From positions 62,001 to 126,000 of the forward strand of contig NZ_CALWUM010000001.1 of the NCBI RefSeq assembly GCF_944384765.1: a stretch of 64,000 nucleotides of DNA, written 5' to 3'. The notes beneath the pieces were generated by a model. It made no database searches and had not been told where the DNA came from. It worked only from the letters and a program-made list of their open reading frames with translations. Of this stretch, positions 8,290 through 12,596 are shown piece by piece (position 1 is the first letter of the stretch; each line of letters starts with the position of its first letter). The translations under genes were made by a program, and so were the position numbers. This DNA is from an uncultured Agathobaculum sp. (GTDB lineage Bacteria > Bacillota > Clostridia > Oscillospirales > Butyricicoccaceae).

Positions 8290-8318
8290 GCGCAGCCGTA
8301 ACCCGGCTGCGGGCATAC

Positions 8319-8431: not shown

Positions 8432-9502
8432 TTACTGCATCTCGCACAGCACGCGGATAACCTCGTCGCCCACCTGGTCGGTGGTAGCGGTGCCGCCCAT
8501 ATCCGGAGTCAGCGCCTTCTTTTCGACCATCACGCGCTCGATCACGTCGATCAGCTTTTTGCCCCAGTCCTCGTGGCCGAAGAAGTCCAGCATCTGGCTG
8601 GCCGACCAGACCGACGCCAGCGGGTTGGAGATCTTCTTGCCTGCGATATCCGGTGCAGAGCCGTGGATCGGCTCAAACATGGACGGGAACTTGCGCTCCG
8701 GGTTGAGGTTTGCGCCCGCCGCTAGGCCCATGCCGCCCGAGATCGCCGCGCCCAGGTCGGTGATGATGTCACCGAACAGGTTGGAGGTGACAACGATCTG
8801 GAAGCGCTGCGGATTCTTGACAAAGAACATGCTCGCTGCATCGACCAGCAGGGAATGCGTCTCAACATCCGGATATTCCCGGCTGACCTCCTCAAACACC
8901 TGATCCCAGAACACCATGGAATAGTTGAGCGCGTTGCCCTTGCTGATGCTGGTCAGGCTCTTTTTCTCCTTGCGCGCCAGCTCGAACGCATAGCGGATGA
9001 TGCGCTCGGTGCCGTGACGGGAGAACACGCCAGTCTGCAGCACAACTTCATTTGGCTGGCCCTTGTACAGCCAGTCGCCCGCGCCCGCATATTCGCCTTC
9101 GCTGTTCTCACGGATGACGATCATGTCGATGTCGCCCTTCTTGCAGCCCTCGAGCGGGCAGGGCGCGCCGTTCAGCAGCTTAACCGGACGGACGTTGACA
9201 TACTCGTCAAAGTCGTGACGGATGCGCAGCAGCAGATCCCACAGCGAAACATGATCGGGCACACCGGGCATGCCGACCGCGCCCAGATAGATCGCATCGA
9301 ACTTGCTGAGCGTTTCGATACCGTCGTCGTCCATCATCTTGCCGGTCTTGAGGTAATACTCGCAGCCCCAGGGGAATTCGGTGAACTCGAAGCGAAACGA
9401 GCCGTCCAGCTCGGCGACCTTGTTGAGCACCTTCATGCCCTCGGCGATGACCTCGGGGCCGACGCCGTCGCCTGCGATGACCGCAATCTTATAGGTTTCC
9501 AT
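8432..9502 (-). CDS. Tartrate / D-malate dehydrogenase-type oxidative decarboxylase
   Basis: This 356-residue protein belongs to the isocitrate/isopropylmalate dehydrogenase superfamily, in the tartrate dehydrogenase/D-malate (DmlA/TtuC) branch. Signatures are the N-terminal IAVIAGDGVGPEV, GAVGMPGVPDHVSLW near residue 77 (the substrate-specificity loop of the tartrate branch), RENSEGEYAG near residue 130, and the metal-binding VTSNLFGDIITDLGA near residue 238. Family members oxidise and decarboxylate 2-hydroxy dicarboxylates with NAD and a divalent metal. It is the last gene of an operon with archaeal-type PGK and GAPDH, so its real substrate may be a sugar-acid derivative. That link is inference. 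Confidence 0.88.
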   Translation of the reverse strand: METYKIAVIAGDGVGPEVIAEGMKVLNKVAELDGSFRFEFTEFPWGCEYYLKTGKMMDDDGIETLSKFDAIYLGAVGMPGVPDHVSLWDLLLRIRHDFDEYVNVRPVKLLNGAPCPLEGCKKGDIDMIVIRENSEGEYAGAGDWLYKGQPNEVVLQTGVFSRHGTERIIRYAFELARKEKKSLTSISKGNALNYSMVFWDQVFEEVSREYPDVETHSLLVDAASMFFVKNPQRFQIVVTSNLFGDIITDLGAAISGGMGLAAGANLNPERKFPSMFEPIHGSAPDIAGKKISNPLASVWSASQMLDFFGHEDWGKKLIDVIERVMVEKKALTPDMGGTATTDQVGDEVIRVLCEMQ

Positions 9503-9529
9503 GTTGTCTATTCCTTCTTTCTCTGTATC

Positions 9530-10789
9530 TCAGTCGAGCGGAAAGACTTCCGCAGCGTGGCGCAGTGCGCGCACAACCGGCAGTTCCTCGCCGCTTAAAA
9601 AGCGGATCAGCGCGCCGCCGCCCGTGCAGATGTATCCCATCTGCGGGCCCAGGCCGTATTGATTGGTTGCGGTCACGCTGTCGCCGCCGCCGACCACGGT
9701 ATAGCCCGCGGTGTCCGCCAGCGCCTGCCAGACCGCCTTGGTGCCGAATTCGGTTTCTTGCTTTTCGAAAATGCCCATCGGGCCGTTGACGAACACGGTC
9801 TGCGCGCCCAAAATGATCTCGCGGTATTTTGCCGCGGTCTGCGCGCCGATGTCGACCAGCATTTTGTCGTCCGGCAGCCGGCCGACCATGGCCTCCCCGC
9901 GTTTGCCTTGTTCAGTATACGCCAGATCAACCGGAAGCACAATCTTTTCGCCGTATTTTTCGAGCAGCGGCGCAGCGGTTTGGATAAAGCCGTCGTAGCC
10001 CTGCTTTTTGATGAAGCCGAGCGAAGCCGCGCCGATCTGCTCGCCCTTAGCAGCAAGCAGGATGTTGGCCACTACGCCGCCTGCGAGCACCTGATCCGCG
10101 ATGCCGCGGTCGAGCACGGTCTGCATCATCAGAAAGGCGTCTGCGATTTTGGCGCCGCCGAGCACAAACACGCACGGCCGTTCGGGCGCTTCCATCAGCG
10201 AGGAGATTACGCTGTATTCCTTTTCAAACAGCCGGCCCATGGCAGAGGGCAGGCGCTGCTCAAAGCCGCACAGCGTGGGCTGGTCGCGGTGCGCGGCCGC
10301 AAAAGCATCGCACACGTAATAATCCGCGAGCGGGGCGAGCGTGCGCACAACGAGCGTGTCCGCCTGCTGCTCATGCGTCAGCTTGAGGCTGCGCTCGAAC
10401 AGGGTCTGTTCCTCGGCCATAAAGCGCACGTTATCCAGCAGCAGCACCTCGCCGGGCTGCAGGCCGCGGATTGCGTCCTGCGCGGCCGGGCCGCACACAT
10501 CTGCGATGAACTGCACCTTGCTGCCGAGCAGCTGCTCGAGCACACGGACGTGCGGCCGCAGGGTGTAATAGTTTTTATACTCGATGTCGCTGCCCTGGTG
10601 CGCCATAATGACCACCTTAGCGCCGCGGTCGCACAGCTCGGCAATGGTCGGCACGCAGCCGCGAATGCGGGTGTCGTCGGTCACGCGGTCGGCCGCGCGG
10701 TCGATCGGCTCGTTGATGTCCACGCGCAACAGCACGGTCTTTCCTGCCACGTCCAGCGCGTCCAGGGTATAGATGCCAAATTTCTTCAT
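9530..10789 (-). CDS. Phosphoglycerate kinase, archaeal-like
   Basis: This 419-residue protein is a phosphoglycerate kinase homologue. The N-terminal LLRVDINEPI resembles the archaeal form of the PGK substrate loop rather than bacterial RVDFNVP. DNVRFMAEE lies near residue 118, LGGAKIADAF near residue 211, NGPMGIFEKQ near residue 332 and GGGDSVTA near residue 364. The enzyme would transfer phosphate from an acyl-phosphate to ADP. Its start overlaps the stop of the upstream GAPDH by four bases, so both are made together. A housekeeping bacterial PGK is not visible in this window, so this may be a dedicated copy for another pathway. Confidence 0.9.
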   Translation of the reverse strand: MKKFGIYTLDALDVAGKTVLLRVDINEPIDRAADRVTDDTRIRGCVPTIAELCDRGAKVVIMAHQGSDIEYKNYYTLRPHVRVLEQLLGSKVQFIADVCGPAAQDAIRGLQPGEVLLLDNVRFMAEEQTLFERSLKLTHEQQADTLVVRTLAPLADYYVCDAFAAAHRDQPTLCGFEQRLPSAMGRLFEKEYSVISSLMEAPERPCVFVLGGAKIADAFLMMQTVLDRGIADQVLAGGVVANILLAAKGEQIGAASLGFIKKQGYDGFIQTAAPLLEKYGEKIVLPVDLAYTEQGKRGEAMVGRLPDDKMLVDIGAQTAAKYREIILGAQTVFVNGPMGIFEKQETEFGTKAVWQALADTAGYTVVGGGDSVTATNQYGLGPQMGYICTGGGALIRFLSGEELPVVRALRHAAEVFPLD

Positions 10790-11820
10790 TTCAGACCACG
10801 CGCTTTCATGCCCAGATATTTGTTGGTTTCCGCCGTGCCCTCGTCCCGGGTCATCTGCATCTGCATGGCTGCACGGATGCCGTCCATGTTCTCCGGAATG
10901 ACAACTGACTCCTGCGGGATGTTGATGGCGAACATGATCTGGTCGCCGCTCATCACGATGGACTCATCCCACAGCGCGATCTCGTAGTTGTCGCCGCGGA
11001 ACTTGCCCATGTCGCGCGCATAGCGGAACAGGGAAGCGTTGCCGAGGAAGCCATCCGCGATCTTGACCGTGCGGATGCGGGGATGCTGCGCCGCCATCTC
11101 GAGCAGATCGGCCTTGTTGATCTTTTTCTTGGGCGTTGCAACGACCGTGATGATATGACCGTGGGTGACCGGCGCGTGCACCAGGATGCCGGTCGCATCC
11201 ACATGCGGCATGATGTTCATCAGGTCGAGTGCCTGATGGCTGGGCGCGTATTCCATCTGCAGCGCGTTGGTCAGGCCGCGGTGATAGTCGCCTGGGTCGG
11301 CCACGCGGCGGATGATCGTGATGGCAACCTTGTCCACGCCGACCGCGCGGTCGATCATATCCACCGCACGGATCAGGCCAGTGGTGTTGCAGCTGGTCAG
11401 CTTGAGGAACTGCTGCCCCAGGCCCTTCTCATAGTTTGCATAGCCGTGGAAGAACACATCCGCCACGTTATTCTTCTCGCCGCCCTGGAAGATGGCTTTT
11501 TTGCCCATGCGCGCATAAAGCTCCTTGTTCTTTGCGCCGATGCCCGCTGAGGTCGCGTCCAGGATGATGTCGCACTGCTCGACCATATCCTCCATCGTGC
11601 CCGAAATAGGCACGCCGGCCTCCTTGAGCTTGTCCTCATTCTCAGGCAGCGCATTATAAAAATGATAGGGCATACCGGACTCTACCAGCCCGCGCACCGC
11701 CAGAGTGGGCGCAACGTCGGAAACACCGACCAGTTCCATATCCTCCTGCATTGCCACGCCCGTCGCCAGACGAAGACCAATTACGCCGTAACCCGCTACA
11801 CCAACTTTTACCTTACTCAT
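10786..11820 (-). CDS. Type II (archaeal-type) glyceraldehyde-3-phosphate dehydrogenase
   Basis: This 344-residue protein matches archaeal-type GAPDH. It has an N-terminal Rossmann motif VGVAGYGVIGLRLA, the catalytic Cys in LTSCNTTGLIR near residues 138-148, then RRVADP and SHQALD blocks typical of this class. It oxidises a phosphorylated aldehyde to an acyl-phosphate with NAD(P). ATG 11820 was chosen because CAGGAGGAGAAGC precedes it; an upstream in-frame ATG lacks a site. It is the first gene of the operon, driven by the promoter at 11889-11917. Physiological substrate could be glyceraldehyde-3-phosphate or a related aldose phosphate. Confidence 0.9.
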   Translation of the reverse strand: MSKVKVGVAGYGVIGLRLATGVAMQEDMELVGVSDVAPTLAVRGLVESGMPYHFYNALPENEDKLKEAGVPISGTMEDMVEQCDIILDATSAGIGAKNKELYARMGKKAIFQGGEKNNVADVFFHGYANYEKGLGQQFLKLTSCNTTGLIRAVDMIDRAVGVDKVAITIIRRVADPGDYHRGLTNALQMEYAPSHQALDLMNIMPHVDATGILVHAPVTHGHIITVVATPKKKINKADLLEMAAQHPRIRTVKIADGFLGNASLFRYARDMGKFRGDNYEIALWDESIVMSGDQIMFAINIPQESVVIPENMDGIRAAMQMQMTRDEGTAETNKYLGMKARGLK

Positions 11821-12094
11821 GCTTCTCCTCCTGTAAATGGTCATATCTTGGTTATATTTTTGTTATCTTCTGGCCAGATGTTGCATATACTATACCATGC
11901 TTCACCCCATATTGCAATAGAAAAATCAAAACTTTTTATTGTCTTTTTTCTATCAATCACGTTATTTTTGTGTCAAATTAAAAACTTTGTGACCGAAATA
12001 ACAATATATACAGCCTGCACAATTCCATGGTTAAGTTTTGGTTGGTTTTAACCAGAATTTTTCATTCCATCAACGGCTATGGGCCGCATGATGC
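11821..12094 (-). promoter_or_regulatory. AT-rich control region with palindromes upstream of the GAPDH operon
   Basis: This gene-free stretch holds the promoter above, a perfect 10-base palindrome TCTGGCCAGA (11869-11878) just downstream of the likely start of transcription, and TGGTT-TT-AACCA (12043-12054) nested in a wider TGGTTAA/TTAACCA inverted repeat (12028-12054). These are candidate operators. The regulator is unknown. The marR gene to the right is an obvious candidate but is in the same orientation and separated by a terminator. Confidence 0.45.
11889..11917 (-). promoter_or_regulatory. Sigma-A promoter of the GAPDH-PGK-dehydrogenase operon
   Basis: Reading leftward, -35 TTGCAA (11912-11917) and -10 TATAGT (11889-11894) are separated by exactly 17 bases, placing transcription start near 11882. 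Confidence 0.75.
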
Positions 12095-12149: not shown

Positions 12150-12596
12150 CTATTCTGATTCCTGCGCAAGCGCCTGCTCCATACTCTTTTGCAGTTTGCA
12201 CATGGCGTCCACCATCGCTTCCCGCTCCTCGGGCTGCAACATGGACAGGGCGCGTATCTCAAACCGCTTTACCGCCTCGCTCAGTTCGCGCGCCGCGGCG
12301 CTGCCCGCCTCGGTCAGCACGACAACGCGGCTGCGCCGGTCGTCCCGCGCCACACGGCGGACCGCCATGCCGCGCTTTTCCAGGCTGTCGATCACGCTGG
12401 CAACCGTCTGCTTGGACAGATGCAGCCGGCGGCACAGCTCCGCCTGGGAAAGCGGCTCGGCCTGTTCATACAGCATGGTGAGCATGTTGAATACGTTGAA
12501 TGTGACACCGCGGCGCGCCGCCCACTTTTCGTAAACCGCGTCCAGCCCAAGCCAGCTCTCATAATACTGTCGCAGCAGTTCCTCCATGGTGCGCAC
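12150..12596 (-). CDS. MarR family transcriptional regulator
   Basis: This 148-residue protein has the MarR layout. An N-terminal dimerisation helix is followed by a winged helix (PLSQAELCRRLHLSKQTVASVIDSLEKRG, residues about 48-76), the wing with RRVARDDRRSRVVVLTEAG near residues 79-97, and a C-terminal dimerisation helix. The wing sequence DDRRSRVV is the DxRxxxv signature of the family. GTG 12596 is preferred because AAGGAGGG lies seven bases upstream; ATG 12587 is too far from that site. The gene stands alone between its own promoter and terminator. Ligand and targets are unknown. Confidence 0.88.
   Translation of the reverse strand: MRTMEELLRQYYESWLGLDAVYEKWAARRGVTFNVFNMLTMLYEQAEPLSQAELCRRLHLSKQTVASVIDSLEKRGMAVRRVARDDRRSRVVVLTEAGSAAARELSEAVKRFEIRALSMLQPEEREAMVDAMCKLQKSMEQALAQESE

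Follow-up and report, generated by a model that had tools for sequence, protein, structure and literature searches.

A gene trio of an uncultured Agathobaculum sp. as the probable closing part of a myo-inositol pathway that uses transketolase and passes through D-malate

The window analysed here, a stretch of 64,000 nucleotides from an uncultured Agathobaculum sp., carries three adjacent genes on the minus strand that, together with the candidate signals around them, are laid out as follows.

10786..11820, minus strand: GAPDH-II homologue, 344 aa; proposed phosphorylating D-malic-semialdehyde dehydrogenase
9530..10789, minus strand: PGK homologue, 419 aa; proposed D-malate kinase (D-malyl-phosphate + ADP -> D-malate + ATP)
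8432..9502, minus strand: TtuC/DmlA-type dehydrogenase, 356 aa; proposed to convert D-malate to pyruvate + CO2
11889..11917, minus strand: promoter-like site directly upstream of the GAPDH-II gene (TTGCAA-17-TATAGT, extended -10 TG), a consensus match only
11844..11876, minus strand: three 11-bp tandem repeats (TGGCCAGAAGA/TAACAAAAATA/TAACCAAGATA) resembling the IolR operator of B. subtilis, a suggestive likeness
8291..8311, minus strand: terminator-like hairpin downstream of the trio, a consensus match only

Open reading frames and profile matches bear out an earlier note on this DNA, which had recognised an archaeal-type GAPDH, an archaeal-type PGK and a tartrate/malate-type dehydrogenase at 8432-11820. 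In profile searches the first protein scored 393 bits against NF003251 (type II GAPDH; cut-off 185) and 302 bits against TIGR01546 (cut-off 233), and the second 394 bits against PF00162, above the Pfam cut-off, with P. horikoshii PGK (2cun) as its closest solved structure. The third matches TIGR02089 'tartrate dehydrogenase' at 507 bits, where 470 is the cut-off, and its closest solved structure is 3flk. The genes had also rightly been described as overlapping or close: the GAPDH stop and the PGK start share ATGA, and 27 nt separate the PGK and TtuC genes. A ribosome-binding site (AGGAGGAG) is predicted before the GAPDH-II gene, and the G+C content of the trio is 0.606 compared with 0.602 for the window. 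Purine genes flank the trio on one side; on the other lies a MarR gene (12150-12596), which we rejected as a member of the unit because a strong hairpin with a T-run stands in between. A survey across genomes, as the earlier note had proposed, found the full trio in G241 (identities of 94/86/94%) and also in L050, L051, L068, L073 and L093, so the trio is a real conserved arrangement and not the product of chance.

The genome to which the window belongs (G000; 2.29 Mb, 98% complete) also encodes, on contig 8, a PGK of the canonical kind (558 bits, HLGR motif intact) and, on contig 24, a canonical GAPDH. Since ordinary gap and pgk genes are thus present, the trio does not constitute the glycolytic enzymes of this genome, and a role as its main glycolytic set was rejected, in agreement with the side branch of central metabolism that had been suggested before. 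A leucine or TCA role for the TtuC-type gene was likewise discarded because LeuB and IDH are encoded elsewhere. The trio has no physical linkage to the iol genes of this genome, which lie on contig 12 (IolG, IolE, a second IolG-like gene, IolD, an IolB-like gene, TKn and TKc), contig 10 (TKn, TKc, malic enzyme and IolE) and contig 4 (an IolB-like gene and IolD). IolD (871 and 867 bits), IolE (383 and 372 bits) and IolG (445 bits) are over their cut-offs. The IolB-like proteins match the KduI/IolB Pfam family and score 85-103 bits against TIGR04378 (cut-off 205), IolB homologues being divergent overall (85-109 bits against the IolB cut-off of 205). IolC (5-dehydro-2-deoxygluconokinase) was not found over the cut-off in this genome; the top match (208 bits, cut-off 300) adjoins sucrose PTS and invertase genes and is therefore probably a fructokinase.

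Locus layouts made by tblastn place GAPDH-II in a wider gene context. Among the 80 loci listed, PGK is present at 76 and begins less than 200 nt after GAPDH-II at 72; TKn was found at 39, IolE and IolG at 34 each, IolD at 32 and IolB at 23, and malate-racemase-type LarA, malic enzyme and TtuC at 46, 21 and 8, respectively. One locus, L036 (G355), holds iolE-iolB-iolD-iolG-gapdh2-pgk-larA-tkn-tkc-malE in a single row, and that of Clostridium ganghwense (L079) reads gapdh2-pgk-tkn-tkc-iolB-iolD-ttuC-iolE-iolG, its TtuC being over the TIGR02089 cut-off. The IolD, IolE and IolG of related operons score above the cut-offs of their equivalog models. Another genus has three genomes in which the place of TtuC is taken by a D-2-hydroxyacid dehydrogenase. 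The occurrence of three D-malate-capable enzyme families beside one GAPDH-PGK pair suggests D-malate as their shared product, and the stereochemistry in turn suggests that its source is transketolase cleavage of 2-deoxy-5-keto-D-gluconate. Clustering of the 80 loci listed, which was done after the transketolase idea had arisen, also brought out a split transketolase, malate racemase, malic enzyme and IolB.

With 597 bits, the LarA of L066 exceeds the cut-off (500) of the malate racemase model NF052593, and it has Mar2 as its top solved match. Every LarA whose signature position could be read (44/44) shows [GYW]HK there, GHK being the malate signature of LarA-type racemases (PMC7583248). Such Mar2-like proteins are over the cut-off in related clusters but not in the window's genome, where malate racemase was not found over the cut-off (336 vs 500 bits) and TtuC stands in its place; the TtuC-type enzyme is therefore likely to be the D-malate enzyme of this organism. 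Malic enzyme always occurs with LarA among the loci listed (21/21; Fisher p = 9e-7) and TtuC never does (0/8; Fisher p = 6e-4), both p values being optimistic because kinship was ignored. This pairing and this exclusion are what would be expected if racemase plus malic enzyme, on the one hand, and TtuC, on the other, were alternative uses of D-malate. The in vivo role of LarA-type malate racemases had been left open (PMC7583248). As for TtuC, the protein is over the cut-off of the TtuC/D-malate dehydrogenase family (TIGR02089) and here shares its operon with GAPDH-II and PGK.

In 3-phosphoglycerate kinases, the Arg or Lys at the end of the HLGR/K motif binds the 3-phosphate of phosphoglycerate. 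The PGK of the window reads AHQGS instead, and this position is Ser, Asp or Gly in 81/81 relatives among the PGKs listed, as opposed to Arg in this genome's own canonical PGK (HLGR) and Lys in P. horikoshii (HQGK). GAPDH-II, with its catalytic Cys in SCNTTG, shows RGLTN...SHQ...THGH where the archaeal enzymes have KGPIN...SHH...LMHxH, and the changes from SHH to SHQ and from LMHxH to THGH, near the pocket, are family-wide. The pair therefore resembles archaeal type II GAPDH and PGK in family, in the catalytic Cys and in the remaining PGK substrate residues (equivalents of D23, N25, R38, H62, R122 and R170 are retained), but differs in the lost phosphate-site residue, the GAPDH motifs and the operon context.

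The gene content, co-localisation, family identities and residue losses observed here can be brought together in one pathway, and we think it probable that the trio completes a breakdown of myo-inositol by way of transketolase, yielding D-malate, then pyruvate, and one ATP. IolG, IolE, IolD and an IolB-like enzyme, encoded elsewhere in the genome, would convert inositol to 2-deoxy-5-keto-D-gluconate. TKn/TKc would then transfer a C2 unit (carbons 5-6) onto glyceraldehyde 3-phosphate to form xylulose 5-phosphate, leaving 3-hydroxy-4-oxobutanoate (D-malic semialdehyde) as the other product, a cleavage that would stand in for IolC phosphorylation and IolJ aldol cleavage. GAPDH-II would oxidise this semialdehyde with NAD(P) and Pi to D-malyl phosphate, from which the PGK homologue would form D-malate and ATP at the expense of ADP, and the TtuC-type enzyme would carry out the NAD-dependent oxidative decarboxylation of D-malate to pyruvate and CO2; in relatives, D-malate may be used by malate racemase and then malic enzyme, or perhaps by a D-2-hydroxyacid dehydrogenase. 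Substrates and direction are predictions, and so is the D configuration, since transketolase cleavage of this ketose would leave the malate carbon as D. The earlier note's chemistry is supported as far as aldehyde oxidation with phosphate, ATP gain from an acyl phosphate and oxidative decarboxylation of a hydroxy-acid are concerned, but its aldehyde phosphate substrate is not. It also seems likely to us that this is a new and widespread anaerobic inositol route, in which transketolase gives D-malic semialdehyde and a repurposed GAPDH-PGK couple of archaeal type turns it, via D-malyl phosphate, into D-malate with formation of ATP. To our knowledge, neither a D-malic-semialdehyde nor a D-malate-kinase-type activity has been reported for the GAPDH-II and PGK families. 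The earlier note had known of no described pathway with this gene set, and we too found none in the open-access literature, in which sources on inositol give IolC/IolJ only or omit the present route.

The classical myo-inositol pathway of Bacillus, Salmonella and Anaerostipes runs through IolG, IolE, IolD, IolB, IolC and IolJ (PMC9430895, PMC8355322). The proposed route would share with it the IolG, IolE and IolD equivalogs and the IolB homologue up to 2-deoxy-5-keto-D-gluconate, but the window's genome has no IolC over the cut-off, and transketolase, GAPDH-II, PGK and D-malate enzymes would replace the kinase, the aldolase and the malonate-semialdehyde enzymes. In the sulfo-TK pathway of sulfoquinovose, the transketolase SqwGH cleaves a 6-substituted ketose without a C6 phosphate and passes the C2 unit to glyceraldehyde 3-phosphate (PMC9594981). 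Its action on a comparable 6-substituted fructose is a direct precedent for the proposed TKn/TKc step, with the difference that the substrate here would bear a carboxylate and the C4 aldehyde would be oxidised with a gain of ATP, rather than being isomerised and cleaved again.

The triple 11-bp repeat before the trio, which we presume to be akin to the B. subtilis IolR operator, is the top IolR-operator-like triple within the 64-kb window. A TAACCAA core, which the G000 sequence examined contains about once every 16 kb, is located just upstream of the trio, TKn and iolB in this genome, and also precedes the trio in G241, L050 and L051. These observations were made post hoc and are suggestive only. 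A DeoR-type regulator gene adjoins the transketolase operon in the window's genome, and GAPDH-II in several relatives.

Within the order, 394 genomes were surveyed with profile cut-offs for GAPDH-II, IolD and IolC. GAPDH-II proved rare (7/394 over the cut-off), IolD was found in 36 genomes and IolC in 14, all of them IolD-positive. All seven GAPDH-II genomes fall among the 22 that have IolD and lack IolC (hypergeometric 6e-10 over the 394 genomes, kinship ignored). Fifteen IolD-positive, IolC-negative genomes do not have GAPDH-II and must handle malic semialdehyde with a different enzyme or have a different fate for it; in G172, a genome of this type from the same genus with transketolase and malic enzyme, GAPDH-II persists only as a remnant. 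A wider scan of 84,980 species, in which 290 candidates encoded relatives, gave at least 80 GAPDH-II loci at 67-94% identity, and those listed span Clostridia, Spirochaetota, Chloroflexi, Poribacteria and Kiritimatiellia. Where few or no iol genes are present at the locus, IolD is encoded elsewhere in the genome in 21 of 25 carriers. About 12 carriers are without IolD (for example Acetobacterium, Dorea D27, L068, L085, L091, L092, L093 and L116), and in these the GAPDH-II/PGK module may serve another substrate; at the Acetobacterium loci an acetoin-dehydrogenase-like E1/E2/E3 set takes the place of transketolase. Plasmid type II GAPDHs (~35% identity) were uninformative as a functional guide; two examples adjoin a copper ATPase/DUF305 or pfkA, with no PGK annotated alongside.

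The absence of IolD from some carriers would also agree with a module acting on tartrate semialdehyde (2,3-dihydroxy-4-oxobutanoate), which transketolase would release from fructuronate or a hexuronate like it and which would be oxidised to tartrate as the substrate of TtuC, a family that carries tartrate's name; malate racemases, too, weakly epimerise tartrate (PMC11770544). However, the IolD, IolE and IolG of the operons, as equivalogs over cut-off, yield a 5-deoxy product and hence malate, not tartrate, and malic enzyme, where present, always comes with malate racemase. We therefore hold tartrate to be an unlikely general substrate, which may nonetheless be used in a minority of genomes without inositol genes.

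Glycolysis itself is suggested by the NCBIfam label of type II glyceraldehyde-3-phosphate dehydrogenase, and the pair might be a spare or conditional set of archaeal origin, with TtuC unrelated to it. The conserved linkage to iol, transketolase and malate genes, the active-site changes in both proteins and the second, canonical-scoring PGK in 18/19 carriers checked, as in the window's genome, make this very unlikely. The conversion of erythrose 4-phosphate to 4-phosphoerythronate with gain of ATP, followed by decarboxylation to dihydroxyacetone phosphate by the TtuC-type enzyme, as in PdxA2, is chemically neat, was the first idea to come from the trio alone and had its substrate, erythrose phosphate, named in the earlier note as well. 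That proposal does not withstand the loss of the PGK phosphate-binding residue in all 81 relatives listed, nor would malate racemase and malic enzyme make sense alongside it, and we consider it highly improbable. The substrate of the trio is probably no aldehyde phosphate at all, as the genes around these loci indicate malic semialdehyde, formed from inositol by transketolase.

Inositol is a common plant sugar-alcohol, and the transketolase-type inositol route, if true, would explain the use of inositol from dietary phytate by many gut, rumen and sediment anaerobes, with pyruvate and CO2 predicted to be formed without malonate semialdehyde. Surveys call inositol users by iolB, iolC, iolD and iolE (PMC9430895), so that genomes on this route, which are mostly without iolC, could be missed or show unexplained products. 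The route would also provide a physiological source of D-malate for malate racemase and D-malate dehydrogenase, and the energy-conserving couple of GAPDH and PGK would gain a second substrate.

Across the order Oscillospirales, where 394 genomes were surveyed, IolC, the kinase of the classical inositol route, was not found over the cut-off in 22 of the 36 genomes encoding the inositol-pathway enzyme IolD, and GAPDH-II was also missing from 15 of these 22. A congener of the window organism (G172) retains a 72-codon remnant of the GAPDH-II gene (L042:9650-9865) at the same purine locus as the window trio; the remainder of the trio has been deleted, while iol, transketolase and malic-enzyme genes are still present. 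The window's own genome carries a decayed fragment of a third PGK gene (contig 16:26496-26858; L043:10002-10385). It shares 48-54 % identity with the PGK of the window, contains an in-frame TAG, and has a pyruvate carboxylase gene on one side and genes for molybdate transport on the other.

Other gene company was also observed. A D-2-hydroxyacid dehydrogenase gene immediately precedes GAPDH-II in four loci (L037-L040), joined in L037-L039 by an HPr-like gene and in L038-L039 by genes for an FGGY kinase, a GPH transporter and an SDR, and the module there possibly acts on a different substrate from that elsewhere. Another conserved gene set, and no iol genes, adjoins GAPDH-II/PGK in L057, L060, L061, L063, L071, L072, L076, L082 and L107; IolD is encoded elsewhere in these genomes. 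Bacterial type II GAPDHs of a distinct group, at about 35 % identity, are encoded on plasmids of Rhodococcus, Corynebacterium and alphaproteobacteria; one of these genes has a copper ATPase gene as its neighbour.

In Acetobacterium (L096, L098 and L103; for example, L103:5269-9981), the set comprises GAPDH-II, PGK, malic enzyme and the malate-racemase-type protein LarA. Here transketolase is replaced by adjoining xanthine-dehydrogenase-like genes and genes for the E1-alpha, E1-beta, E2 and E3 components of a complex resembling acetoin dehydrogenase. This complex is perhaps an alternative TPP-dependent supplier of the same aldehyde, the proposed D-malic semialdehyde.
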